In this document: in pieces, positions 918 through 63,276 of the stretch
How the letters are laid out: each line of letters starts with the position of its first letter
Position numbering within the stretch: position 1 is the stretch's first letter
DNA from: Bacteroidia bacterium
GTDB taxonomy: Bacteria > Bacteroidota > Bacteroidia > J057
Reading direction: 5' to 3'
DNA: 64,000 nt
Assembly (NCBI GenBank): GCA_033391075.1
Contig: JAWPMV010000005.1
Span: 372,001 to 436,000, forward strand
Program-made: the position numbers and the translations under genes
Notes under the pieces: model-generated
The model's input: the letters and a program-made list of their open reading frames with translations, nothing else
Told to the model about the DNA's origin: nothing
The model's database searches: none

Positions 918-3668
918 ATGGAAGAAATAAGAAAATTAAGTACCATTCTTTTTGCTGACATAGCCGGCTATACCGCGATGATGCAAAAAGATGAACGACA
1001 TGCATTGGGAATATTGAACCAATTCAAAGAAATTTTAGAAACATACGTTCCGCAACACAAAGGCATCATTGTACAATACTTTGGCGATGGATGTCTGTTG
1101 AGTTTTGAGAGTGCTACCGATGGTGTAACATGCGCTTCAGCCTTACAATCCAGCCTTGTCCATCAGCAAATACCCGTTCGGATCGGTATGCACCTCGGTG
1201 AGGTTATTTTTAAAAATAATAACGTCTTTGGAGATGGGGTCAATATTGCCTCCCGCATTGAAACCATGGGAGTTGCGGGTTCGATCATTATATCTAAAGC
1301 CATTCGAGATCAAATCAAGAACAATAGTGCTTTTCAGTTAAGCTCATTGGGCGCTTTTCAGTTCAAGAATGTCGATACTCCCATGCAGATCTTTGCCCTG
1401 GCTAATGAGGGCCTTACGGTCCCGAAGAGACAGGAGATGAAGGGGAAATTAAAAGAAGAAGAGGGCAGTCTATTCCAGCAACTCTGGAAGAAAAGAATTC
1501 CACAGATCCTGGCAGTTTATATTTTACTTGCCTGGCTGGGCGTGCAATTGTTTGACTGGGCTTTACATCAATTTGGCATTTCGCCCCATTGGGCACAGAT
1601 ATTCTTCATTAGCATCTTGGGCCTTATTCCTTCCTTATTGGTCTATCTGAATAATCAGGAACGGGTTAGTAAAGGGCAATTAAAATTGGGAGAAAAGATC
1701 CTTTTTCCATCAAATCTAATCCTTGTAGGAGCCGTGCTATTTTTTATATTTCGCACGACGGATTTGGGTGCCACCTCCAAAGATATCACCTTCACAGATC
1801 TAGACGGAGGCGTAGTAACGAAAACCATTATCAAGGAAGAATTTAAAAAGCGGTTTCCGATATTTTCTTTTGAGCCTATGAAGAAAGATAGTGTGAATGA
1901 ATGGATTGGCAATGCGCTGGGGGTTTATATCAATTTCAAATTACGTCAAAACGAATACCTCTCTCCTTACTTCATTCAGCAGCCCTTAGATAAAATCCAT
2001 GCCCATTTAACCAAAGTAGAAAAGGTCCAACGAGCCAAAACGGCCACTGAATCTTTTTACATAGATGGTCAATACCAGGTCATCGATGACCAATACGAGG
2101 TCATCTCTGCCCTGCGAAATAGGAAATCGGGAAATCTGATCAAAGAACGGCGATTCATTAGCAATGACCTTCTGACGCTGATGGATTCTGTGGGGAGATT
2201 TATGATCCAATCTGTAGGACTTAGCCCCTCGCAAATAGAAGCAAATCCTGACCTGAGTGTTCGGGAAATGGCTACTGATAAGGTAGAAGCATTAAAGCAT
2301 TTCATTATTTCTCTAACTGGCTTAGGCGATCTCTACATAAACCTGGAAAAGGCTATTGAATTGGATTCTACCTTCGCTTTAGCCTTACAAGGCTATGCTG
2401 CTAAAAATTATTACTATCAAAGGGGAAGCCTGGAAACCAAACGGGCAATAAACCAGGCCATGCGGCACCGAAAACGATTGCCTTATGCGTATCAAATCGC
2501 TCTTAGGGTACAAAAACATTTAATCTACCGAGAGTGGGAAAAGGCAGAAGAATTGCTGAAAATCCAATTGGAAATCGAGCCTAACAATGACCTCTATAAC
2601 AATTCCCTTTTAAATGTTTATTTTAAAACGGGTCAATACGATAAACAGGTAGAACATTCCGAAGATCGATTTGCCAGAGACCCTACTCCCACAAATGGAC
2701 TCCAGTCGATTCGAGCCTTAATGGTAAATGGCCAAGCCGATAAAGTAATTGGCAGAGTGAAAAATTATTTATTATTAGATCCGCAAAATGTTTCTGCTTT
2801 AGAACTATTAACTCAGGCTTATATACTTAGCGGAGACCTGGATAAAGCAAAAAAAACCTGTGAAAAAATCATCTTAATCAATCCTGAATTAGAGCCTTAT
2901 ATTTCAAAGAATTTGGAAGCGCTAGACTATATGGAAACCCACCCCATCAATCAGGAAGACCTGTCAAAGTTTGTAGGTGTTTTTCGTAGTATTTACTCGG
3001 AACAGATTATTGAAAATCGTTTGCTTAATGGCCTCCTGTATTCAAAAGCTTTTCATCAAAATGGAATTTACTTGTATCCTGCCGGGGAAAATCAATTGAA
3101 AAGCGGAAAAATTTATGGAGGGCGTGAAATGGGCCTATTGATTAATTCGGAGGGAAAAGTTTATGGTTTTAAAAACACTGAAACTGAAAAAATAAAAAGT
3201 ACCTCTTATTATTATTATTGGAAACAAGACTCCACCATTTGGCAAGCTGAAGACTTACTAAGAAAGGGAGATTACGAAAAGGCCCAAATCGCTTACCAAA
3301 AAGCAATTGACCAACACCCAGAACATTATTATCTTCAGCAAGCTAAACAACATTTGGACTATGTTCAATCTCAATCGAAAGCGGAGCTGCTGGAAAACTT
3401 CCAAAGGTTGGTGGGCCAATATGGCGAAATCGATGTCTGGATAGAAAACGGCCTGCTTTACTACAAAAAACTGGGTATAAGCAGAAGGATTTTCCGTCCT
3501 CTCTCCAGGAATCGCTTCACTACCTTACTCAATTATGCCCATAATTATGAAATTATAGAGAAGGGCGGGCAGGTAGTCGCTATTCAGGGGTCCCACTATA
3601 ATCTGGAAAAAAGGGAATGGGAAAAATCCCCAAACTGGTATTTTGAACGGACGGAGAAATTGGATTAA
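918..3668 (+). CDS. Class III nucleotide cyclase-TPR membrane protein
   Basis: A 916-aa protein. Residues 5-160 are a class III adenylate/guanylate cyclase catalytic domain with both metal-binding Asp (D14 in FADIAGYT, D57 in YFGDG) and the transition-state Asn and Arg (N109, R113 in VNIASR). Three hydrophobic segments follow (about 194-213, 226-245, 261-279), then a FlgO/TolB-like region and a long TPR region to the C-terminus, with a lone TPR-like unit near 770-800. The architecture suggests cNMP production coupled to protein-protein sensing at the inner membrane. The two residues that select the purine base are Q53 and N102, where related bacterial proteins usually have K and D, so substrate or even activity is uncertain. 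The next gene encodes a soluble TolB-TPR-AraC protein that may be its partner. Confidence 0.88.
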   Translation: MEEIRKLSTILFADIAGYTAMMQKDERHALGILNQFKEILETYVPQHKGIIVQYFGDGCLLSFESATDGVTCASALQSSLVHQQIPVRIGMHLGEVIFKNNNVFGDGVNIASRIETMGVAGSIIISKAIRDQIKNNSAFQLSSLGAFQFKNVDTPMQIFALANEGLTVPKRQEMKGKLKEEEGSLFQQLWKKRIPQILAVYILLAWLGVQLFDWALHQFGISPHWAQIFFISILGLIPSLLVYLNNQERVSKGQLKLGEKILFPSNLILVGAVLFFIFRTTDLGATSKDITFTDLDGGVVTKTIIKEEFKKRFPIFSFEPMKKDSVNEWIGNALGVYINFKLRQNEYLSPYFIQQPLDKIHAHLTKVEKVQRAKTATESFYIDGQYQVIDDQYEVISALRNRKSGNLIKERRFISNDLLTLMDSVGRFMIQSVGLSPSQIEANPDLSVREMATDKVEALKHFIISLTGLGDLYINLEKAIELDSTFALALQGYAAKNYYYQRGSLETKRAINQAMRHRKRLPYAYQIALRVQKHLIYREWEKAEELLKIQLEIEPNNDLYNNSLLNVYFKTGQYDKQVEHSEDRFARDPTPTNGLQSIRALMVNGQADKVIGRVKNYLLLDPQNVSALELLTQAYILSGDLDKAKKTCEKIILINPELEPYISKNLEALDYMETHPINQEDLSKFVGVFRSIYSEQIIENRLLNGLLYSKAFHQNGIYLYPAGENQLKSGKIYGGREMGLLINSEGKVYGFKNTETEKIKSTSYYYYWKQDSTIWQAEDLLRKGDYEKAQIAYQKAIDQHPEHYYLQQAKQHLDYVQSQSKAELLENFQRLVGQYGEIDVWIENGLLYYKKLGISRRIFRPLSRNRFTTLLNYAHNYEIIEKGGQVVAIQGSHYNLEKREWEKSPNWYFERTEKLD

Positions 3669-3937: not shown

Positions 3938-5743
3938 ATGAACAAGCATCTACCCATATCATCATCCAATAAATCCATTGCGGTTCTCCCTTTTGTTAAT
4001 ATGAGTGCCGACCCTGAGAACGAATACTTCAGCGATGGCATTACCGAAGAAATAATCAACGCCCTAACCACCGTGAAGGGTTTGAAAGTCATAGCTCGCA
4101 CCTCCTCCTTTGCATTTAAGAATAAAAATATAGATGTGAGAACCATTGGTAATCAGTTAGGGGTACATACTATTTTGGAGGGGAGTGTCAGGAAAGTCAA
4201 AAACAGGGTTCGCATTACAGCGCAGTTAATCAGTACTGATGACGGCAGCCACTTCTGGTCAAAAAATTTCGATCGGGAGTTGGAAGACATATTTGCCCTA
4301 CAAGATGAAATAAGTTTACACATTGCTGACCAGATTCGAGAAAATTTTGGTCACCTCAATATCCCGGAATATTTAATTGAAGCGCCTACACAAAATATGG
4401 AGGCCTATGACCTTTATCTTAAAGCTCGCTACCAGCATTTATTATGGGATGGCCAGGGCATCGCAAATGCAATAGAACTCTATGAACAATGTGTAAAGCT
4501 AGACCCCTCATTTGCTTTGCCTTACTTTGGTTTGGCGTATTCTTATGCCATGTACGGATCATGGGGAAATAATAAAGCTTTGTTAGAATTGTCAGAAGAG
4601 AACCTCAGTAAAGGTTTTAAGCTGGACAAACAATCCTATATAGGGTATTTTAGTAAAGCGACATTGTCCTTTTGGGGTCAATGGGATTTCACCAATGCCC
4701 ATATATTTTTCCAAAAAGCAATAGAACTTAATCACTCCTATACGGAAGCAGAAGAAGGTTTATGTGAATTGTATACAGCAGTAGGTTATTTCGAAAGAGC
4801 CCATGGGCATGTTGATAATATATTGAAAACAAACCCTTTGTCTCCGAATCATTATTTTACCAAAGCAAATATTCACTATTTAAATGAGGAGTACTCGAAA
4901 GCGCTGGAATGTATAGAGACCTCCTTAAGCATCAATCCAGATTTTACCCATTCTATCGCATTAAAACAATTATGCTTAATTCTCTCGAAAGACTACGAAA
5001 AACTAAATAACTTCTTAAGTCAGACCCCTTTGGCTGAGAGACCAGAAGAATGCAGAGTTTTGTACAAGTTGGTCAATCCAGAAGATAAGATCGATATTGA
5101 TATCAGCAGACTCGGCTTAATGATAAAAGAAGATTTTGGGACAGCGCTTTTTCCCTGGCAACTTTTTTTGTTGGTCCATTTGGACAAACACGAACTGGCC
5201 TTGGACTTTTTGGAAGAAAACATCAGGATACGTACGGGTCAAATCATAAACTTTATGAATATTCCGCTACTTAAACCTTTACACGGGTATCAGAGGTTTC
5301 AGGAGTTACAACAAGCCACTTTCCCTATAGAACTATTACCACCAGAGCCCGAAAAACAAATACGAATTGCCCCTCCCAAAGCCTTAATGTCAGTTGCAGA
5401 AATCGACATGGTTTTAGAAACTTTGGGAAAAGAAATGAAGGAAGAAAAGTGGTTTCAAAACCCCTCTTTATCTTTACGCGAGCTAGCCGAAAACCTGAAT
5501 ATTAGCAGCAATAAGCTTTCCTGGTTGCTGAATGAACGAATGGGCCAAAATTTCAATGAATACATCAATAGTTTTCGTTTGGAGAACTTCAAAGAGATTG
5601 CCCTAAATCCTGCCAACAACCACCTTACCCTCTTAGCCCTGGCTTATGAAAGCGGCTTTAATTCTAAATCGGTATTCAATGCCTTCTTTAAAAAAGCCGA
5701 AGGGATGACACCAAAAGCCTGGCTGAGGTCCCATCAAACCTAG
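3938..5743 (+). CDS. TolB/FlgO-like - TPR - AraC-type HTH regulator
   Basis: A 601-aa cytoplasmic protein without signal peptide or membrane segment. Residues about 12-135 match the TolB-amino-terminal/FlgO-like module (SIAVLPFVNMSADPENEYF, DGITEEIINAL, ILEGSVRK, STDDGSHFWS) normally seen fused to cyclases or CadC-type regulators. Residues about 150-410 are TPR repeats. Residues about 500-600 form an AraC-family double HTH (LRELAENLNIS, then LTLLALAYESGFNSKSVFNAFF). It is expected to bind DNA and sense through the TPR region. It lies 269 bp after the cyclase-TPR gene on the same strand, which suggests a functional pair: cyclase on the membrane, related TPR transcription factor in the cytoplasm. 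Targets are unknown. Confidence 0.85.
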   Translation: MNKHLPISSSNKSIAVLPFVNMSADPENEYFSDGITEEIINALTTVKGLKVIARTSSFAFKNKNIDVRTIGNQLGVHTILEGSVRKVKNRVRITAQLISTDDGSHFWSKNFDRELEDIFALQDEISLHIADQIRENFGHLNIPEYLIEAPTQNMEAYDLYLKARYQHLLWDGQGIANAIELYEQCVKLDPSFALPYFGLAYSYAMYGSWGNNKALLELSEENLSKGFKLDKQSYIGYFSKATLSFWGQWDFTNAHIFFQKAIELNHSYTEAEEGLCELYTAVGYFERAHGHVDNILKTNPLSPNHYFTKANIHYLNEEYSKALECIETSLSINPDFTHSIALKQLCLILSKDYEKLNNFLSQTPLAERPEECRVLYKLVNPEDKIDIDISRLGLMIKEDFGTALFPWQLFLLVHLDKHELALDFLEENIRIRTGQIINFMNIPLLKPLHGYQRFQELQQATFPIELLPPEPEKQIRIAPPKALMSVAEIDMVLETLGKEMKEEKWFQNPSLSLRELAENLNISSNKLSWLLNERMGQNFNEYINSFRLENFKEIALNPANNHLTLLALAYESGFNSKSVFNAFFKKAEGMTPKAWLRSHQT

Positions 5744-7610: not shown

Positions 7611-8831
7611 ATGTCTGTTGATAATAGAGAGGAAACACTCTTCCATAGAATCGTTGATATCGGCCTGAACAAGGAATTTTCAGTAACCGAGAGAAGGTAC
7701 CTAAGGGTCACCAATATAGCCGCAATGCTAGGGGTTCTTTTCAACTTCCTATGGATGTCAATTGCCATATCCATTTCGGAAACAACAAGTGCGGTATGGA
7801 ATGTAATACTGGGCTTGATGTTTCTGCTGGTATTAGTTTTGAACCAGAAAGCCAGGCGGGTTACTGCTTCAGTCTGGCTTGCGATCTCAGCATATTTTTC
7901 AGTGCTCGTATTTCTTTATTTTTCAGGATATCACTCAGGGATTGCTAGCGTTTGTTTTCTGATAATCATCTTGCCCTACATGACTTTCCCGAGAAAGGCA
8001 AGATCGCTTGCCCATGGTTTCAGTTTATTGGCTTGCTTGACTTTGATTGCTACAGTTGTCTTTCAATCAGAATTCTATGCTCAACATAATGACATGGATC
8101 CTTATTTATCACAGATTGTCAATATAGGCATGACGGCATTAATTAGTCTTGCTTTGATGTGGAGCTTATCTGTGCTGATTGATAGCTCAGAAGATTCATT
8201 GATGGCAGAACAGAAAAAATCTGATGATCTTCTGCACAATATTCTACCTGCAAACATTATAAAGGACCTGAAAGAGAATGGTAAGACCATTCCAAAAAGA
8301 CACAAGAGTGTGACGATTCTATTCACTGACTTTGAAGGATTTACCCACTTAGTGGCATCTATCCCTGCAACCACCCTGGTCAATGAACTCAATGACATCT
8401 TCGGACGATTCGATGACATTATGGAGGAGACTCGCGTTGAAAAGATTGAAACAATTGGTGATGCATATATGGCTGCATGCGGCCTTGAAGGTGAAATCAC
8501 AAGCCACGCTCCTAATTGTATCAAAGCGGCAAAAAAGATGCTGTCCTATCTTGAGGAGAGGAATAAGAAGCACGAAATAAAATGGAGGATGAGGGTTGGG
8601 ATACATTCAGGAGCTATTGTAGCTGGAGTTGTCGGCAAAAAGAAGTTCGCTTACGACCTTTTTGGCGATACAATAAATACAGCCAGCAGGATAGAATCTG
8701 CAGGCGAAGCGGGTAAAATTAATATCTCCTCATCTACCTATGAACTAGTTAAGAACGACTTTTCATGTCTTTCTCGTGGAAGGATATTTGCGAAGGGAAA
8801 AGGGGAATTGGAAATGTATTTTGTAAATTAA
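7611..8831 (+). CDS. Membrane-bound class III adenylate/guanylate cyclase
   Basis: 406 aa. About six hydrophobic segments fill residues 33-190, followed by the signalling linker LLHNILPANI and a complete class III cyclase domain (about 228-400). Metal ligands D240 (FTDFEGF) and D284 (TIGDAYM) and transition-state residues N356 and R360 (TINTASR) are present, so catalysis is expected. The purine-selecting positions are mixed: E280 (KIETIGD) is the guanylate-type residue, while D349 (YDLFGD) is the adenylate-type residue. Whether it makes cAMP or cGMP is therefore open. The N-terminal membrane bundle is probably the sensor. A Crp-type cyclic-nucleotide-binding-like protein is encoded at 40.5 kb. 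Confidence 0.93.
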   Translation: MSVDNREETLFHRIVDIGLNKEFSVTERRYLRVTNIAAMLGVLFNFLWMSIAISISETTSAVWNVILGLMFLLVLVLNQKARRVTASVWLAISAYFSVLVFLYFSGYHSGIASVCFLIIILPYMTFPRKARSLAHGFSLLACLTLIATVVFQSEFYAQHNDMDPYLSQIVNIGMTALISLALMWSLSVLIDSSEDSLMAEQKKSDDLLHNILPANIIKDLKENGKTIPKRHKSVTILFTDFEGFTHLVASIPATTLVNELNDIFGRFDDIMEETRVEKIETIGDAYMAACGLEGEITSHAPNCIKAAKKMLSYLEERNKKHEIKWRMRVGIHSGAIVAGVVGKKKFAYDLFGDTINTASRIESAGEAGKINISSSTYELVKNDFSCLSRGRIFAKGKGELEMYFVN

Positions 8832-17505: not shown

Positions 17506-17816
17506 ATCATCGAAGGTGCAAAGCAGGATTACAATTTTTTACAGGTATGAATCTCAAGTTCTGGATTCACCTGATAATAATACGCTCGGTTCCGGATAGA
17601 AAGAAGGAGCTTTTCCCAATGAAGTAGCAATCGATTTTGATAGGATGGAAATGAAGGGCTTTGAGTAACCTAAGGCCTTTACAATTTTTTACAGTCTTTT
17701 TACACTTGATAACTCAGACTACCGATTCTATATGATAGTTTTGAAATAGGATCCTATTGATATCCTTCAAATACCAAAGATTGGGGAAAGCATCAAGCAA
17801 TTGAAAAGACCATAGC
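17506..17816. other. Gene-free leader with TTTACA elements
   Basis: This 311-bp gap holds no supported gene. It contains a partial array at 17528-17543 (ATTACA and TTTACA, 10 bp apart) and the complete array-promoter at 17678-17743, described separately. Confidence 0.6.
17678..17743 (+). promoter_or_regulatory. Triple TTTACA array and TAnnTTTG box (site A)
   Basis: TTTACA occurs at 17678-17683, 17688-17693 and 17699-17704 (steps of 10 and 11 bp). After exactly 31 nt comes TAGTTTTG (17736-17743), matching the Bacteroidota -7 box TAnnTTTG. No TTG stands at the normal -33 distance, so an activator bound to the array probably replaces it. The same layout precedes the genes at 29140 and 42919. 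It should drive the 17817 gene and perhaps the propeller gene behind it. Confidence 0.6.
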
Positions 17817-19601
17817 ATGACTAAAAATCTTCTATACATAATTCTTATCCTGCTGCCACTTTCGCTAGCTGCTCAGGAAAAACCGAAAAGTATTGAGCGA
17901 TTTGTGGATGAAATAGACAAAAAAATACCGCAAATGCTGGAAGATTTTTCTATTCCCGGAGCAGCTCTTGCCCTCATGGTGGATGGGGAGATTGTTCTTA
18001 AGAAAGCTTATGGCTTTGCCAATATTGAAAAAGGACTCAAGGTTGACATGCAAACCGGCTTTAATGTTGGCTCAATCTCTAAGACGGTAGCAGCCTGGGG
18101 AGTAATGAAATTGGTAGATGAAGGCAAGCTCGAGCTTGACAGTCCTGCAGAAAGGTATTTGACAAGATGGCACCTTCCCACATCAGAATTTGATTCAGAT
18201 GAAGTTACCATCAGAAGACTCCTAAGCCATACGGCAGGCTTATCACTACCGAGTGTCTCAGCAGAACATTCTTTTGACGATCTGCCGAGCATTGTAGAAT
18301 GGTTGAATGGTAAAAACGAAGGACTTGGGCCCGTGGAAATTATCCTGGAGCCTGGTAGCAAATGGGAGTATTCGGGAGGTGGCTATGGGCTGCTTCAACT
18401 TATCATGGAGGAAGTTAGCGGACAAAAATTTGAAGACTATATGCAAATGGAGGTTCTAGATCCTCTTGGAATGACCAATAGCAGCTTCAAAATAGACGAA
18501 AAAATAAGGGATCGATCTGCTACCCCCTATGATGCATTCGGTGAACCGACCAAATTTGGACTTTATACTGTTCAGGCTGCAGCTGGATTGCATACAACGC
18601 TTGAGGATTTTATACGATTTGCCTATGTCAGCCTTCCTGAACACAAGGAGCATACAAAATATAACCGCCTGTTGCCTCCGGAAACGGTCCGGCAAATGCT
18701 GGAGCCTTCTCCAAATACTACTATCAGAGCCTGGAAATATGGATTGGGATATCAATCCGTTCATCTGGAAAATTCAAATATCTTCATCGGACATGCAGGA
18801 TCCAATATCGGCTGGGAAGCCAATTTCAGGATTGATGCCCCTTCAAAAACAGGCTTCATCATCCTCACCAATGGAGGAGCCGGAGGCAATATTTGCAACC
18901 CCATGTTTTGCGAACTAATCAATTGGAAATCCTCCAAAGCAAGCGGAGATGACTGCTGGCCCAGATTATCTATCGCAAACCTATTGTACCCAATCATTGA
19001 AGACAAAGGAACAGAGGATTTACATGCGAGCTACACAAACTTAAAAAAAGAACAATCAGAAGCCTATGATTTCTCTGAAAGCCAATTAAACAATCTGGGC
19101 TACCATTATATGGCAAAAGAGGAATTCGAAAAAGCAATTGCTGTTTTTAAGCTGAACACAGAGGTATTTCCCTATGCTTCCAACGTCTATGATAGCTATG
19201 GAGAAGCACTCTTAGCTAATGGATCTAAAAAGGAAGCCGTTGAGAACTACAAATATTCCATACGCTTGAATCCTGAGAACCAAAACGCCCTTAACATTCT
19301 GAAGAAATTGGGAGAATCCTTGGAGGATATTCATTTGAAGCTTCCGCTCGAACATCTCGAATTATTGGAGGGCGAATACCTTGCGACTTCAGGTACAGAT
19401 AAAATAATTCGATATGCAGTTAGGAATGGGGAATTCTTGCGCGTCTACAAAGATAGTGACTTCACAAGCCGGCTCCTTCCGATTGCCAGGAATGAATTTG
19501 TATATATGGGTAGAGGCTTACATGTTGTTTTTGATACCAAAGACCCTAATTCGATAATCCTGAAGGTTCCGGGAGAAGGGGAATTCAAGAAGATAAAGTA
19601 A
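17817..19601 (+). CDS. Beta-lactamase-family serine hydrolase with TPR tail
   Basis: 594 aa with a signal peptide ending in SLAAQ. Residues about 24-370 are a class C beta-lactamase/penicillin-binding-like domain. The catalytic Ser-Lys is S86-I-S-K89 (GSISKT), the tyrosine motif is YSG at 185-187 (the usual third residue is Asn), and GHAGSN near 340 stands for the KTG-like box. TPR units follow at about 420-510, then a beta-rich C-terminal domain. It acts in the periplasm; members are esterases, peptidases or beta-lactamases. The TPR segment closely resembles that of the 29140 protein. It has the site A promoter, and a propeller lipoprotein gene follows 140 bp downstream. Confidence 0.92.
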   Translation: MTKNLLYIILILLPLSLAAQEKPKSIERFVDEIDKKIPQMLEDFSIPGAALALMVDGEIVLKKAYGFANIEKGLKVDMQTGFNVGSISKTVAAWGVMKLVDEGKLELDSPAERYLTRWHLPTSEFDSDEVTIRRLLSHTAGLSLPSVSAEHSFDDLPSIVEWLNGKNEGLGPVEIILEPGSKWEYSGGGYGLLQLIMEEVSGQKFEDYMQMEVLDPLGMTNSSFKIDEKIRDRSATPYDAFGEPTKFGLYTVQAAAGLHTTLEDFIRFAYVSLPEHKEHTKYNRLLPPETVRQMLEPSPNTTIRAWKYGLGYQSVHLENSNIFIGHAGSNIGWEANFRIDAPSKTGFIILTNGGAGGNICNPMFCELINWKSSKASGDDCWPRLSIANLLYPIIEDKGTEDLHASYTNLKKEQSEAYDFSESQLNNLGYHYMAKEEFEKAIAVFKLNTEVFPYASNVYDSYGEALLANGSKKEAVENYKYSIRLNPENQNALNILKKLGESLEDIHLKLPLEHLELLEGEYLATSGTDKIIRYAVRNGEFLRVYKDSDFTSRLLPIARNEFVYMGRGLHVVFDTKDPNSIILKVPGEGEFKKIK

Positions 19602-19741: not shown

Positions 19742-20866
19742 ATGGCAACATATTTCTACCAGAAGCTATTTTACATCTTGCTTTTAGCTGGATTCACGAT
19801 GAATTCCTGCAAAGGCCAGGTGAATACAAGCACGACCAGGGAGTCAGTAAAAATTCCAAAAACTGGCCCGGAAATCATAGGAACTCCTCCCCCTCCGAAT
19901 CCAGAACATAATCCATACAATGACTCCAATCTTGTAAGCCAGTATATTAGAGCCATTTTTGAGGATTCTAAAGGGAATTACTGGTTCGGTCCAGCTGGCC
20001 AGAGTGTCGCCAGATATGATGGGGAAACCCTGGAATACTTCAGTAAGGCTGCGTTTTTTCAGGGCAACAATAAAATAGAGGGCGAAAATGGTCATAGCGT
20101 TCATGCGATAGCTGAGGACAAACTTGGCAATATATGGTTTGGAACAAACCTGGGGGTCATCAAATATGATGGGGAAAGCTTTAGAAGCTATGAAGAAAAT
20201 CAGGGACTAAACAATATCAGAATTGGTCGAAAAAGTATTCTCTCAGACAAATCAGGGGAGCTTTGGGTTGGTACTCATGCAGGTGTTTTTCGATATCTTC
20301 CCTCTGCTGACAGCCTGGGAGGTCAAAGCTTTTCGCAATTTCGCTTGCTTCCCCCTATACATGTAACAGATATCATGGAAGACAAGCAGGGAAATATATG
20401 GTTTGCTTCACAAAATCAAGGGGTCTTTCGGTATGATGGAAAAGCAGTTGAAAACCTTAAAACAAAAGAAAGCCTGGGCGATAATTATGCAGGGGGCCTG
20501 GCAGAAGATAAGGAAGGAAATATCTGGTTTACGATGAGAGATGGGATTTGCCGATATGATGGAGAAAGTTTTAGAAGTTATACAACTGAAGACGGATTAG
20601 GAGGAAGTGAAATTTGGGGGATATTAATAGAAAAATCGGGCATTATATGGATTACCGCCAGAGGTAGCACCACGAGATTTGATCCGTCTCTTCCTCATTC
20701 AAATCCAAAAGCATTTACTGTCTTTACCGTTGCAGATGGACTTAATTGTTGTGTGCAAAGTATGCATCAAGACAGATCCGGTAATATGTGGTGGGGTACG
20801 GGGCAAGGACTTTATCGATTTGATGGCAAAGGCTTTTATCAAGTTAAACAAGATGGCCCCTGGTAG
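19742..20866 (+). CDS. Two-component-regulator-type beta-propeller lipoprotein
   Basis: 374 aa with a lipobox (FTMNSC, Cys 23). The mature protein is made of repeated Reg_prop blades of the form EDKxGNIWFG...YDG...F (EDKLGNIWFGTNLGVIKYDG, EDKQGNIWFASQNQGVFRYD, EDKEGNIWFTMRDGICRYDG), enough for one seven-blade propeller. Such blades normally form the periplasmic sensor of hybrid histidine kinases; here they stand alone on a lipid anchor. The 42919 protein is a paralogue, with the same N-terminal HNPYND-type linker and the same GPW C-terminus. Confidence 0.92.
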   Translation: MATYFYQKLFYILLLAGFTMNSCKGQVNTSTTRESVKIPKTGPEIIGTPPPPNPEHNPYNDSNLVSQYIRAIFEDSKGNYWFGPAGQSVARYDGETLEYFSKAAFFQGNNKIEGENGHSVHAIAEDKLGNIWFGTNLGVIKYDGESFRSYEENQGLNNIRIGRKSILSDKSGELWVGTHAGVFRYLPSADSLGGQSFSQFRLLPPIHVTDIMEDKQGNIWFASQNQGVFRYDGKAVENLKTKESLGDNYAGGLAEDKEGNIWFTMRDGICRYDGESFRSYTTEDGLGGSEIWGILIEKSGIIWITARGSTTRFDPSLPHSNPKAFTVFTVADGLNCCVQSMHQDRSGNMWWGTGQGLYRFDGKGFYQVKQDGPW

Positions 20867-29061: not shown

Positions 29062-29127
29062 TTTACACTCCTTTAACAATCTTTTACAAAGAAAAAGATA
29101 AAGGGGCTTGCATTCGGTTTATGTTTG
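29062..29127 (+). promoter_or_regulatory. Triple TTTACA array and TAnnTTTG box (site B)
   Basis: TTTACA at 29062-29067, TTTAACA at 29072-29078 and TTTACA at 29083-29088 are spaced about 10.5 bp apart. The -7-type box TATGTTTG (29120-29127) follows after exactly 31 nt, and the ATG of the serine hydrolase gene is at 29140. The geometry is identical to sites A and C. No -33 TTG is present. Confidence 0.6.
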
Positions 29128-29139
29128 GGAAAAATACTT

Positions 29140-30618
29140 ATGACGACCTCCTATTTCCCGCACAGCCTCATTTCCCTATTAACTTTCTTCTTTTTAGCTT
29201 CCTGCCAGGGAGAATCCCAGCTAAAAGCCCAAAACGAAAAGCTTTCCTCCAAAGCTGAACAGATTGAAAATCTCATAGGCCTGTATTCGGACTATGGAGG
29301 CTTCAATGGATCTGTTTTAGTGGCGCATGAGGGAAAAATCTTGTATAAAGGAGGATACGGCAAGGCGAATATGGAATGGGACATTCCTAATGAGCTTGAT
29401 ACCAAGTTTCAAATCGCTTCTGTAAGCAAGCAGTTCACGGCTATGCTGGTTATGCAGCTGGTTTCAGAAGGCAAATTGGATCTACATGAGCCCATTTCTA
29501 CTTATCTTCCTGATTACCCTACAGAAAAAGGAGATCAAATAAACATTCACCAATTACTGACCCATTCTTCTGGTGTCCCCAATGCCCAGGGAAAGGATAA
29601 AGCTTTTCTCCCAAAAGATATGGTCAATCAGTTTGCAAATGACAAGCTGGAATTTTCTCCAGGAGAGAAATTTGGCTACAGCAATTCTGGTTATGTGCTC
29701 CTGGGATATCTGATGGAGACCCTAACAGAAAAAAGCTATGAGGAGCTCTTGAAGGAGCGAATTTTCGAGCCCCTTGGCATGGAAAATTCCGGATTCTACC
29801 GACACCGGGCTATTATCAATAAAATGTCCTCCGGCTATGTCAAAGGTTTTGGCGATTTTTTCGATATGGATAATACCGATGAATCTTCGGCTTATTCTGC
29901 AGGAGGGATTTATGCAACGGTAGAAGACCTGTATGTATGGGATCAGGCTTTGTATACAGAGAAACTCCTTCCTCAAGCCTACAAAGATCAGCTTTTCACG
30001 AAACACATAGCTGATCCGGGCTATGGAGGGCATTATGGCTATGGTTGGGAATTGATCGACAGAAAAGTAGGGGATAGCGATAGCCTCATAGAAACGATCA
30101 GTCATGGAGGGAGGATTGGGGGCTATTTAGCATCTATCAGAAGAATGCCTTCCAGCCGTTCCAGCATCATTTTACTAAGCAACACCAATTACGCCTTCCT
30201 CAATTCAATTTCTAAAGCAATTACCGGGATATTATACGATAAGCCATACAGCTTACCCCTAAAACCCCTGGCCTTATTTATGAATGAAGTCATAGAAAAA
30301 GAAGGCATCGATAAAGGTATTTCCTATTACAAAGAGCATAAAGATTCGGATGAGTATTATGTCTCGGAGCAGGAACTCATAATTGCAGGCTATAAAAAAC
30401 TGCATGCAGGTAATGCCGAAGATGCTGCCAAAATATTCAAATTGAGTATACAGGTATTTCCTGATAGAGATAATCCCTATGACAGTTATGCGGAAGCCCT
30501 GATGGAATTAGGCGAAAGGGAAGAATCAATTAAATTCTACAAAAAATCGCTGGAGATAAATCCCAATAACCAAAATGCCGTAAGAATGATAGAGAAGTTG
30601 GAAAGAGATGAGCCCTGA
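29140..30618 (+). CDS. Beta-lactamase-family serine hydrolase lipoprotein with TPR tail
   Basis: 492 aa from the ATG at 29140; an in-frame TTG 15 bp upstream lies inside the predicted promoter box. The lipobox FFLASC puts the lipidated Cys at 22. The serine hydrolase domain has S94-V-S-K97 (SVSKQF), YSN in FGYSNSGY, and SHGGRIGGY as the KTG-equivalent. TPR units occupy about 400-490. Paralogue of the 17817 protein. It is expected at the periplasmic face of a membrane, hydrolysing an ester or peptide bond. It is first in an operon-like run with the 30653 lipoprotein gene and the 31363 membrane protein gene, all behind site B. Confidence 0.93.
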   Translation: MTTSYFPHSLISLLTFFFLASCQGESQLKAQNEKLSSKAEQIENLIGLYSDYGGFNGSVLVAHEGKILYKGGYGKANMEWDIPNELDTKFQIASVSKQFTAMLVMQLVSEGKLDLHEPISTYLPDYPTEKGDQINIHQLLTHSSGVPNAQGKDKAFLPKDMVNQFANDKLEFSPGEKFGYSNSGYVLLGYLMETLTEKSYEELLKERIFEPLGMENSGFYRHRAIINKMSSGYVKGFGDFFDMDNTDESSAYSAGGIYATVEDLYVWDQALYTEKLLPQAYKDQLFTKHIADPGYGGHYGYGWELIDRKVGDSDSLIETISHGGRIGGYLASIRRMPSSRSSIILLSNTNYAFLNSISKAITGILYDKPYSLPLKPLALFMNEVIEKEGIDKGISYYKEHKDSDEYYVSEQELIIAGYKKLHAGNAEDAAKIFKLSIQVFPDRDNPYDSYAEALMELGEREESIKFYKKSLEINPNNQNAVRMIEKLERDEP

Positions 30619-36055: not shown

Positions 36056-36922
36056 ATGGCCAGCAACTCATTGTTTAGGGATGACCTACGAATTATGAAT
36101 CTCCAGAACCTCCTGAAAACCCCTTTTCCAAGGCCCAGGTGGAATAAAAAGAATTTGCTCTGGCTGTCTCTCATCGGGATGAGCTGTAGCCTATTTATTA
36201 TCCTATTCAAGCCTTTTGGGATTGAGAATGTAAATAAACAATGGTATTACGATCTCGTAATCCTGAGTATGGGAATCCTATTCATAGGTTCCTATCTTTT
36301 TATTGAAGGGCTCATCCCTAAACTCTTTCCTGGATTGTATAAAAACTGGAGCTTGTGGAAAGCCATTTTATGGTATAGCCTGGTGATGCTTTTTACAGGA
36401 GGAGTCTTATTTCTGTATAAAAGCTTCCTGGCAGGATTTAGTGACTTTACCCTGAGCGAGTATTTTTTTGTCATTGGCCGAACAGCCCTCATTATATTGA
36501 CGGTTTCATTTTTCTCCCTCGGCCTCTATCAATACTTCAATAGAAAGACGCTTTCTGTCTTATCAAGTAGCGAAGCCTATGTTCTTACTTCTTCCCTGGG
36601 CAAATCTCTCAACATATACCCCAAAGATATTCTATACATCAGCAGTGATGATAATTATGTAGACATCCATTACTTGCAAGACGGGCTTCGAAAAAAAGAA
36701 GTGCTCCGAGCCAGTTTGAAAAACGTAGAAGCCCAAGTCGTCAATGTGATGAATCCCATTTATCGCTGCCACAGGAGTTACCTCATTAATGCAGATCAGG
36801 TAGAAATCCAAAACAGTAGCTCTAGAAATATGCGCCTATCCCTCAAAGGATATGAGGATGAGATACCGGTTTCCCGCCAATATGTAGACCGCATCAAAAA
36901 AGTCCTGTCTACTGACCCCTAA
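36056..36922 (+). CDS. Membrane-anchored LytTR transcriptional regulator
   Basis: 288 aa. Four membrane segments (about 33-50, 64-84, 100-122, 137-157) precede a LytTR DNA-binding domain (about 185-285) with IYPKDILYISSDDNYVDIHY, VLRASLKNVEAQV, IYRCHRSYLIN and YEDEIPVSRQYVDRIK, all typical. No phospho-receiver is present, so the membrane bundle probably senses directly. A second in-frame ATG at 36095 is an equally good start. It is the only LytTR protein in the window and a candidate, not proven, binder of the TTTACA arrays at sites A-C. Confidence 0.92.
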   Translation: MASNSLFRDDLRIMNLQNLLKTPFPRPRWNKKNLLWLSLIGMSCSLFIILFKPFGIENVNKQWYYDLVILSMGILFIGSYLFIEGLIPKLFPGLYKNWSLWKAILWYSLVMLFTGGVLFLYKSFLAGFSDFTLSEYFFVIGRTALIILTVSFFSLGLYQYFNRKTLSVLSSSEAYVLTSSLGKSLNIYPKDILYISSDDNYVDIHYLQDGLRKKEVLRASLKNVEAQVVNVMNPIYRCHRSYLINADQVEIQNSSSRNMRLSLKGYEDEIPVSRQYVDRIKKVLSTDP

Positions 36923-40529: not shown

Positions 40530-41093
40530 TTGATGAAAGCCATTCTACAATCCTTCCAGTTGCTTACCGAAGAGGAAATTGAAGCCTTTCAAGACATGCT
40601 GGTTCCCAAAAGATTAAAAAAAGGGGAATACTTTATACAGGAAGGAAGGGTTTGCAGGGAAATTGCTTTCATAAGCTCGGGCTTTTTCAGATCTTACTAT
40701 TTTTCTTCCAGCGGAGAAGAACTCACCTATTGCTTCACCTTCCAACAATCCTTTCTGGCGGCATATTCCTCCTTTATAACTCAAGAGCCAACCCAGGAAA
40801 ATATTCAGGCCATGATGGAGGTAGAGATGTTGACGATTTCAAGAGAAAAAATCATAGCCTTGGAGAATAGCAGTTCCAATTGGTTGAAGGTATTCAAACG
40901 CATGGCGGAAGAAGAATATGTAAAAATGGAGAAACGTATCTTCCTATTGCAGAAAGAAAGTGCGGAGACTAAATACCAGGACCTCTTGAAACATCATCCG
41001 GATTACCTCAATCTCATTCCCCTGAATTACCTCGCCTCCTACCTGGGAATCACCCAAAGACACCTGAGCAGAATTCGGGCTTCTGCGAATTAG
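40530..41093 (+). CDS. Crp/Fnr family regulator
   Basis: 187 aa, the usual length of Bacteroidota Crp-like proteins. A cyclic-nucleotide-binding-type jelly roll (about 10-115: LKKGEYFIQEGRVCREIAFI, GFFRSYYF) is followed by a dimerisation helix and a winged helix (LIPLNYLASYLGITQRHLSR). The phosphate-binding cassette of true cAMP receptors (GE...RxA) is not conserved, so it may bind another ligand or none. It probably regulates its own operon, which continues with a quinone reductase and a hydrolase. Confidence 0.9.
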   Translation: MMKAILQSFQLLTEEEIEAFQDMLVPKRLKKGEYFIQEGRVCREIAFISSGFFRSYYFSSSGEELTYCFTFQQSFLAAYSSFITQEPTQENIQAMMEVEMLTISREKIIALENSSSNWLKVFKRMAEEEYVKMEKRIFLLQKESAETKYQDLLKHHPDYLNLIPLNYLASYLGITQRHLSRIRASAN

Positions 41094-42835: not shown

Positions 42836-42901
42836 TTTACTTCTCCTTTACACTATTTTACAAAACTGTCTCAGTCATAGAAAGACTTCCTTTTATCTTT
42901 G
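42836..42901 (+). promoter_or_regulatory. Triple TTTACA array and TAnnTTTG box (site C)
   Basis: TTTACT (42836-42841), TTTACA (42847-42852) and TTTACA (42857-42862) are spaced 11 and 10 bp apart. TATCTTTG (42894-42901) follows after 31 nt, and the propeller gene starts at 42919. The geometry equals sites A and B, and again there is no -33 TTG. Confidence 0.6.
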
Positions 42902-42918: not shown

Positions 42919-43992
42919 ATGAAGAAGTTCCTCATATACTTCCTGTTTATTCTCTTAACTTCTCTCTTTGCTTGTAGCCTTCCACAGAGCTCTCACCTTT
43001 CGGAAGAACAAACAAGTGAGAAAGCTGTGGAGAAGAAGGATTCTATTCCTGCCAATTACTATGGCGATCCTATGTGGGATCCCACTGCTAAAGACAAAAT
43101 TCTACCAGTAGTGCGACGGATTTTCCAGGATAGCAGAGGAGATCTTTGGTTCGCTGGAGATTGGGTAGTTCGCTACAACTATGATTCTCTTGAGGTTTTC
43201 AATAGTGAAGATGATTTTCGACGGCTTGTTGTTAGGGAAATAAAAGAAGATCAGAAAGGAAATATCTGGTTTGGAACCTCAGGCGGTATCCTGAAATATG
43301 ATGGCAAATCCTTTCAGACCTATTCAGAAAAGCAAGGATTGATCGACAATGATGTGTGGAGTATGGAAATCGATAGCAAAGGAAACATTTGGGTAGGAAC
43401 GATTGAGGGCCTGAGTAGATTCGATGGAGAAAAGTTTAGGGATATTGATTTACCCGAAGCAGAAGAAGATTCAACAAGAGGAGTAACAAGTACTCAGATT
43501 GTTCATAGCATCATGGAGGACAGCAAAGGACAGATGTGGTTCGCAACCAATGGAGGTGCATATATTTATACAGCTGATTCCCCCCTCAAAAATATATCAG
43601 AAGAAGAGGGTTTACCTAGCAAGTTTGTAAATGATATCCTGGAGGATAAATCAGGAAATATTTGGTTTTCCACTAACCATCAGGGGATATGCCGTTGGGA
43701 TGGGAAGAATTTCACTTATTTTTCAGAAAAAGAAGGAATAAAAGGCACAGAAGCCTGGAGCCTCTATGAAGATCAATCCGGCAATATCTGGTTTCCCATC
43801 AAAGGCCATGGCATGTATCGATACGATGGTAAAAGATTTACCAACTTTCACAAAAAAGAAGGACTGAAAGAAAATGCCATGCATACTAGCTGGGAAGACA
43901 AAGAAGGAAACCTATGGTTCGGAGGTTTTATGGCCCTCTATCGCTTTGATGGCAAAAACTTTACTCCTATTGATAAAAATGGTCCCTGGTAA
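42919..43992 (+). CDS. Two-component-regulator-type beta-propeller lipoprotein
   Basis: 357 aa with a lipobox (TSLFAC, Cys 19). Reg_prop blades repeat along the chain: EDQKGNIWFGTSGGILKYDG, DSKGNIWVGTIEGLSRFDG, EDKSGNIWFSTNHQGICRWD, EDKEGNLWFGGFMALYRFDG. It ends NGPW, as the 19742 paralogue ends DGPW. Probably a lipid-anchored seven-blade propeller that binds a ligand or partner. It is controlled by site C, shared with the serine hydrolase genes, and may work with those enzymes. Confidence 0.92.
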   Translation: MKKFLIYFLFILLTSLFACSLPQSSHLSEEQTSEKAVEKKDSIPANYYGDPMWDPTAKDKILPVVRRIFQDSRGDLWFAGDWVVRYNYDSLEVFNSEDDFRRLVVREIKEDQKGNIWFGTSGGILKYDGKSFQTYSEKQGLIDNDVWSMEIDSKGNIWVGTIEGLSRFDGEKFRDIDLPEAEEDSTRGVTSTQIVHSIMEDSKGQMWFATNGGAYIYTADSPLKNISEEEGLPSKFVNDILEDKSGNIWFSTNHQGICRWDGKNFTYFSEKEGIKGTEAWSLYEDQSGNIWFPIKGHGMYRYDGKRFTNFHKKEGLKENAMHTSWEDKEGNLWFGGFMALYRFDGKNFTPIDKNGPW

Positions 43993-62685: not shown

Positions 62686-63276
62686 TTAGCCGGCATAGGC
62701 CATCTGGTATTTCTGACTTCCCGTATAAAGCTGGTCCATATCGCTTTCCTTGAGCAAATCCACCCGCAACTTTTTCTTGGCCCTGAACAGACGAATTTTA
62801 ACCGCTTCCTCCGAAATCCCAAGGTCATTAGCTGTTTCTGAGGTTGAAGCTCCCATCACCAGGCGCTGCACGACTACTGACTTATATTTTGGAGCCAGGC
62901 GTGATATGGCACGATCCAGTTGATTCCTGATCTCCGTATTTATCACCTGGTGTTCTGTAGTAGGTGCTAATGGGAAATCTGCTTTATTAAAGTTGTTCTG
63001 ATACTTGCGGAAAAGCCCCTTGCGACGGTTGGATTGCTTACATTCGTTGATCATGATGCGAATCAACCAGCTTTTGAAGGACGAATCTCCCCTGAACTTG
63101 TGCAAGTTTTCAAAAGCTTTCAGAAAAGTAGTCTGGATCATATCTTCTACCTCTCCTCCTTCGAACAGGTAATAGTGCCCCACTTTGCGCAAATAGCTTG
63201 TATATTTTTTTACCAGTTTTTCAAACTCTTCGGTTTTCCCTGAGAGGACGTTTTTGATGGTTTCTTGCTCAGTCAT
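62686..63276 (-). CDS. ECF-type RNA polymerase sigma factor
   Basis: 196 aa. Region 2 is FRGDSSFKSWLIRIMINECK with the preceding VEDMIQTTFLKAFENL (D-x-x-Q-x-x-F). Region 4 is LAPKYKSVVVQRLVMGAS, then ETANDLGISEEAVKIRLFRAKKKL, the recognition helix. No anti-sigma gene is adjacent on either side in this window. It directs RNA polymerase to a specific promoter set; targets unknown. Confidence 0.95.
   Translation of the reverse strand: MTEQETIKNVLSGKTEEFEKLVKKYTSYLRKVGHYYLFEGGEVEDMIQTTFLKAFENLHKFRGDSSFKSWLIRIMINECKQSNRRKGLFRKYQNNFNKADFPLAPTTEHQVINTEIRNQLDRAISRLAPKYKSVVVQRLVMGASTSETANDLGISEEAVKIRLFRAKKKLRVDLLKESDMDQLYTGSQKYQMAYAG

Follow-up and report, generated by a model that had tools for sequence, protein, structure and literature searches.

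Three arrays of TTTACA half-sites, A, B and C, in the window (the whole stretch of 64,000 nucleotides analysed here) are very probably operators of a single membrane-anchored, one-component regulator of the OmpR/PhoB type, and are placed so as to activate the genes behind them. The array keeps a fixed spacing to a TAnnTTTG box and, in many genomes, neighbours a gene whose product joins a winged helix to one membrane helix. This protein would bind the array and activate transcription. To our knowledge, few operators are known in Bacteroidota beyond those of sugar use and ECF sigma factors. Here, a DNA signature spotted by eye led to a regulator, an operator and a regulon, and to a candidate pathway for envelope sensing in a major phylum. 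The features of the window are as follows.

17678..17704, plus strand: site A operator, TTTACA at 17678, 17688 and 17699 (steps of 10 and 11)
17736..17743, plus strand: site A -7 box, TAGTTTTG, 31 nt past the array
17817..19601, plus strand: site A target, a serine hydrolase (Beta-lactamase family) with TPR and an apparent signal peptide
19742..20866, plus strand: Reg_prop propeller gene
29062..29088, plus strand: site B operator, TTTACA at 29062, TTAACA at 29073, TTTACA at 29083 (steps of 11 and 10)
29120..29127, plus strand: site B -7 box, TATGTTTG, 31 nt past the array
29140..30618, plus strand: site B target, a serine hydrolase lipoprotein with TPR
42836..42862, plus strand: site C operator, TTTACT at 42836, TTTACA at 42847 and 42857 (steps of 11 and 10)
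42894..42901, plus strand: site C -7 box, TATCTTTG, 31 nt past the array
42919..43992, plus strand: site C target, a Reg_prop propeller lipoprotein

Arrays and boxes were read directly from the sequence, and the arrays were also found by a model. This reading confirms the first-pass annotation, which had reported three arrays with steps of 10-11 bp lying 31 nt from TAnnTTTG, none of them with a TTG at -33: a TTG 17-22 nt 5' of the box is absent in A, B and C, and occurs at chance level among all arrays with a box (7/72). Two half-sites deviate by one base: TTTACT, which opens the array of C, and the middle one of B (TTAACA at 29073, previously given as TTTAACA at 29072). Sites A-C, like the other aligned arrays outside a distant clade, thus consist of hexamers of about 6 bp repeated in the same orientation every 10-11 bp, as expected of an OmpR/PhoB-type operator. 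The Reg_prop gene behind the site A target lies on the same strand after a gap of 140 nt and possibly shares its transcript. For the site B target, the ATG at 29140, 12 nt past the -7 box, is the likely start, since the TTG chosen by the ORF caller (29125) falls within the box itself.

Unbiased evidence for the spacing comes from the distance counts in the window and genome-wide; on the target side, the array end lies 31-32 nt from the -7 box, a tally that is biased when taken from the alignment of loci, as the script permitted 30-33 nt only and favoured 31-32. In the window, TTTACA is followed 25-40 nt on by TAnnTTTG four times, and all four occurrences have a distance of 31 nt. One of these, TTTACA N31 TATTTTTG (43587-43631, minus strand), is a lone half-site within the propeller gene of site C and is probably accidental. 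In the whole genome of the organism (9.49 Mb), TTTACA N21-41 TAnnTTTG has 65 matches against 27 for a reversed-pattern control, with a peak at 31 nt (9 of the 65; the next-best distance has 6), and four of these nine lie within these 64 kb. Requiring two half-sites and the box leaves 4 matches vs 0 in the control, and three half-sites and the box with up to three mismatches leaves 5 vs 1.

A sequence-only model was trained on six sites, with pattern searches alongside. It returned at least seven sites in this genome at E 4.6e-5 or better, six being the training set and site G new, and the next match stood at E 0.51. Weak sites may have been missed, since scoring covered 150 of the 3119 first-look candidates. 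Nine matches at E 0.5-10 were left uncounted, of which three loci (L070-L072) were inspected. One of them, L071 (C1:6495742), carries a distinct array of TTAAC/TTTAAC in steps of about 11 bp, 21 nt ahead of TACCTTTG. It is flanked by a divergent sensor-kinase-like gene and a secreted-protein gene, with an OmpR-type gene 2 kb off (C1:6493284), and may be the operator of the adjoining kinase/OmpR-type system. Sites A, B and C lie on contig C5; the other four lie on C1, together with the regulator gene.

C1:6188465 (main contig): site D, 32 nt between array and box, located between its own target and the divergent regulator gene
C1:6187508-6188425, minus strand: regulator gene, 306 aa, divergent from the site D target
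C1:6678360: site E
C1:7041832: site F, box TAACTTAT
C1:4473196: site G

The first-pass annotation had proposed searching the whole genome and its relatives for the pattern, and had expected the regulon to be small and to consist of envelope proteins belonging to paralogous families. This expectation is supported: downstream of each of the seven sites lies a gene whose product looks exported, as judged by eye from the N-termini, and paralogues of window genes are among them. The targets of A and B are serine hydrolases with TPR, those of C and G are propeller lipoproteins (for G, as read from the sequence and not from a Pfam scan), and that of F is a secreted amidohydrolase. Those of D and E are TonB_C-type secreted proteins, by weak Pfam and NCBIfam matches just under the curated cut-offs.

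Evidence for the identity of the binding protein comes from what lies beside the array in this and other genomes. The model found matches at E <= 0.01 in 26 of 149 genomes, this one included, and at E <= 1e-3 in 11 of 149. A divergent regulator gene adjoins the array at site D and at four further loci (L079, L082, L085 and L086), where the neighbouring proteins are about 300 aa long and have basic residues after a single hydrophobic helix; at L087 the array lies upstream of the regulator gene itself. A profile of six regulators, run on the same 149 genomes, detected a full-length regulator in at least 21. Among the matches listed, 10 of the 11 genomes with an array at E <= 1e-3 encode it, vs 11 of the remaining 138 (Fisher p 3e-9, or 2e-8 with this genome removed, kinship being ignored). 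A full-length regulator is found, again among the matches listed, in 4 of the 15 genomes with weaker arrays (E 0.001-0.01), so that adding these gives 14/26 vs 7/123. In one draft assembly of 1670 contigs (G004), arrays are present and a full-length regulator was not found.

The association also holds when starting from the protein. A TTTACA triple with up to three mismatches lies upstream of 18 of 20 full-length regulators (L134 and L136 being those without) vs 0 of 9 ordinary OmpR-type genes, a count from which L132 was excluded for having 35 bp of upstream sequence. Moreover, protein sequence alone was used to pick an independent set of 80 loci (the best 80 of at least 579). It spans Flavobacterium, Chitinophaga, Mucilaginibacter, Pedobacter, Algoriphagus, Saprospiraceae and others, and 79 of its loci were testable (L210 was excluded). 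Chitinophaga pinensis, Ulvibacterium marinum and Marivirga atlantica are among the carriers listed by the protein search. Within 300 bp upstream, these best-scoring loci carry a perfect triple in 39/79 cases, one with at most one mismatch in 60/79, at most two in 69/79 and at most three in 75/79, leaving four loci with no triple within three mismatches. The corresponding counts are 0, 0, 0 and 9 of 790 in dinucleotide shuffles and 0, 1, 1 and 2 of 78 in the 300 bp behind the gene. A triple with up to two mismatches together with TAnnTT at +31/32 occurs at 62 of the 79 loci, against 0/790 shuffles and 0/78 regions behind the gene. The loci are related by descent and hence not independent.

Eleven of the 80 loci scored poorly and were left out of the site alignment, though they are included in the 79-locus count. 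In a distant clade the arrangement becomes TTTACA N3 TTTACA N6 TTTACA, that is, steps of 9 and 12 with the outer distance of 21 kept (37/76 aligned sites), and a weak fourth half-site is visible in some loci only. Many regulator-divergent targets of this clade (L172-L216), from different genera, have a near-identical signal-peptide leader (MKKVIYALILPLVVVSGLVFANREIKN and close variants); a block of promoter and leader may thus have spread recently or been reused.

A stricter pattern, two exact half-sites followed by N31-32 and TAnnTTTG, has 16 matches in the 22 genomes that carry the regulator; they are spread over 13 of these genomes, and 12 of the matches adjoin a divergent regulator. Across 395 genomes of the phylum, this pattern occurs 15 times, in 11 genomes, with four of the matches in the genome of the window; 10 of the other 11 do not lie within an ORF of at least 70 aa. 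Of these 11 matches, three (L248, L250 and L251) adjoin a regulator, and four (L244, whose gene reads as a serine hydrolase, L245, L246 and L247) have a third half-site and an apparently exported protein downstream. The remaining four (L249, L252, L253 and L254) are probably chance matches and were set aside, since no third half-site is visible and L254 lies inside a long ORF. As most regulator-bearing genomes searched have one neighbouring target under the strict pattern, the genome of the window appears to have an enlarged regulon. Whether one can generalize to a phylum-wide cysteine-domain regulator, sensor first and winged helix last, that activates exported proteins via a three-half-site operator, with at least seven sites here, several of them before paralogues, is in our judgement evenly balanced.

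The regulator itself starts with an N-terminal signal sequence and a periplasmic-type domain some 125 residues long. A single membrane helix follows, and the C-terminus is formed by a PF00486 winged helix, at residues 229-302 of 306 in the protein encoded here. PF00486 is the sole Pfam domain in the two regulators scanned (this one and that of L087), and alignment places the same domain in the others. No receiver domain was detected by Pfam in these two proteins, and the NCBIfam matches are confined to the C-terminal part. The membrane helix was assigned from sequence and model, and the predicted topology would put the sensor outside and the winged helix in the cytoplasm. A predicted structure for the protein of L149, which shares 50% identity with the one encoded here (43 rows), has a mean pLDDT of 84, with helices at 4-21 and 169-195 and the winged helix at 203-298. 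Its Foldseek matches are OmpR/PhoB-family domains, including KdpE, PhoB, YycF, CadC and ToxR. The periplasmic part modelled alone reached fair confidence (pLDDT 85, pTM 0.80) and had no Foldseek match at E <= 0.001, the best being 0.024. In a second look by VIA the highest Z was 7.0 (3wqy_A, rmsd 4.1, 99 aligned; tRNA-editing domains), a value that, according to the tool's documentation, unrelated models also reach, and no fold is therefore claimed. A recognition helix region VGR[TS][LV]DVF[IV]SKLRK, with close variants, is common to both regulator clades. Eight genomes were checked for copy number: seven have one regulator each and the eighth has two (E <= 1e-40).

On these features we propose the following mechanism. 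Winged helices would bind in head-to-tail orientation to the TTTACA half-sites, which follow one another at about one helical turn. Given a transcription start some 7 nt past the box, the array would occupy roughly -72 to -46. The periplasmic domain would sense an envelope signal, and RNA polymerase would then be recruited to promoters without a -33 element; recruitment is the most likely mode because the array ends 31-32 nt ahead of the -7 box. The signal may involve thiols or redox state, considering that the three periplasmic cysteines are mostly conserved (positions 105, 127 and 136, kept in 39/43, 43/43 and 37/43 proteins). Sites A, B and C are not adjacent to the regulator gene; they are tied to it by a motif and spacing identical to those of site D, and would thus likely answer to the same protein. 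A family that binds in pairs would not be expected to use three half-sites, which counts against this proposal.

The regulator could instead bind the array as a repressor, or mainly for its own promoter, its targets being turned off. The geometry on the regulator side lends this some weight. At loci among L148-L168, a TAnnTTTG box starts 12-13 nt ahead of the regulator's ATG; this holds for 20 of 22 close named loci and also for the regulator gene at site D. In 12 of 20 relatives the box starts 12 nt ahead of the ATG. This -7 box is about 26 nt from the array edge, so that the array sits between two divergent promoters; the position of the box also suggests that the regulator mRNA is leaderless or near-leaderless, with a start at or near the start codon. 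Nevertheless, both the fixed 31-32 nt to the target boxes, held also at sites far from the regulator, and the lack of a -33 element fit upstream activation. Repressor sites more often overlap the -7 box. We regard this alternative as unlikely.

Candidates for another binder exist within the window itself, which encodes the following proteins.

3938-5743: AraC-type regulator
36056-36922: LytTR regulator
40530-41093: cyclic-nucleotide-binding (Crp-type) protein

The window also encodes two proteins with adenylate/guanylate cyclase domains (918-3668 and 7611-8831), alongside the cyclic-nucleotide-binding protein, and an ECF-type sigma factor with Sigma70 regions 2 and 4 (62686-63276, minus strand).

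One of the three regulators, or an ordinary OmpR-type response regulator, could occupy the arrays. LytTR operators consist of two boxes about 21 bp apart, and the outer half-sites of the array are likewise 21 bp apart; moreover, besides the single full-length regulator, the genome has ten further matches to its winged-helix domain alone. Against this, no such gene adjoins arrays in other genomes and the membrane regulator does, the regulator genes beside arrays belonging to a family other than LytTR, and the arrays at A-C share their sequence and spacing with the one at D, which lies beside the membrane regulator. None of 57 window proteins scanned has an OmpR/PhoB winged helix, and a search of the genome with the regulator gave no match within the window. 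Binding by another protein is accordingly a poor prospect, and the LytTR, AraC-type and Crp-type proteins are disfavoured, as nothing links them to the array. The first-pass annotation had named these three as possible activators: the genes exist, and the gene that does adjoin an array is of the OmpR/PhoB type and on another contig. Its broader idea of a dedicated DNA-binding protein on half-sites one helical turn apart gains from the regulator found beside the array in dozens of genomes, and its suggestion of an activator agrees with the position of the array ahead of the -7 box. Finally, that these are chance runs of spaced TTTACA words in AT-rich upstream DNA is next to impossible, frequent as the word is (59 in the window, both strands), being already contradicted by the reversed-pattern control, with 0 matches in this genome, 0 in the 22 genomes and 0 in the 395 (vs 15 real), and by 0/790 shuffles with a triple at two mismatches.

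Regulation by the membrane-anchored protein finds partial precedents in known systems, and no description of such a regulator or operator was found in the titles and abstract openings of the open-licence literature. In Bacillus, PhoP sites read TTHACA N5 and WalR/YycF sites TGTWAH N5 (reverse complement), and thus share a near-identical hexamer, the direct repeat and an 11 bp step with the array, whereas both are cytoplasmic two-component proteins of another phylum. A reading of the sites as a Pho regulon, on account of the half-site's resemblance to that of Bacillus PhoP, was dropped because none of the seven targets is phosphate-like. Within Bacteroidota, RprY (NF051850) is the best NCBIfam match to the winged helix in all four regulators scanned, but it has a receiver domain and a kinase, and the regulator encoded in this genome, scored over the whole protein, reaches 87 bits vs a family cut-off of 370. 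In E. coli, KdpE binds TTTATA N5 TTTACA at kdpFABC (PMC3264566). It has an OmpR/PhoB winged helix and recognizes AT-rich hexamers of 6 bp, repeated in the same orientation after one helical turn, of which the second is identical to our half-site. Binding through the same kind of winged helix would account for the hexamer and step of the array; KdpE differs in using two half-sites rather than three and in being a phosphorylated cytoplasmic response regulator. In architecture the regulator resembles ToxR and CadC, one-component proteins with a single membrane helix, an OmpR-type winged helix and a periplasmic sensor, several of them with periplasmic disulfides (PMC9214523). Structure comparisons detected no relation between their periplasmic domains and that of the regulator. 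ToxR and CadC carry the winged helix at the N-terminus and the sensor at the C-terminus, whereas the regulator presented here has the reversed order, signal sequence first, and would therefore represent a second way to build a membrane-tethered OmpR-type regulator.
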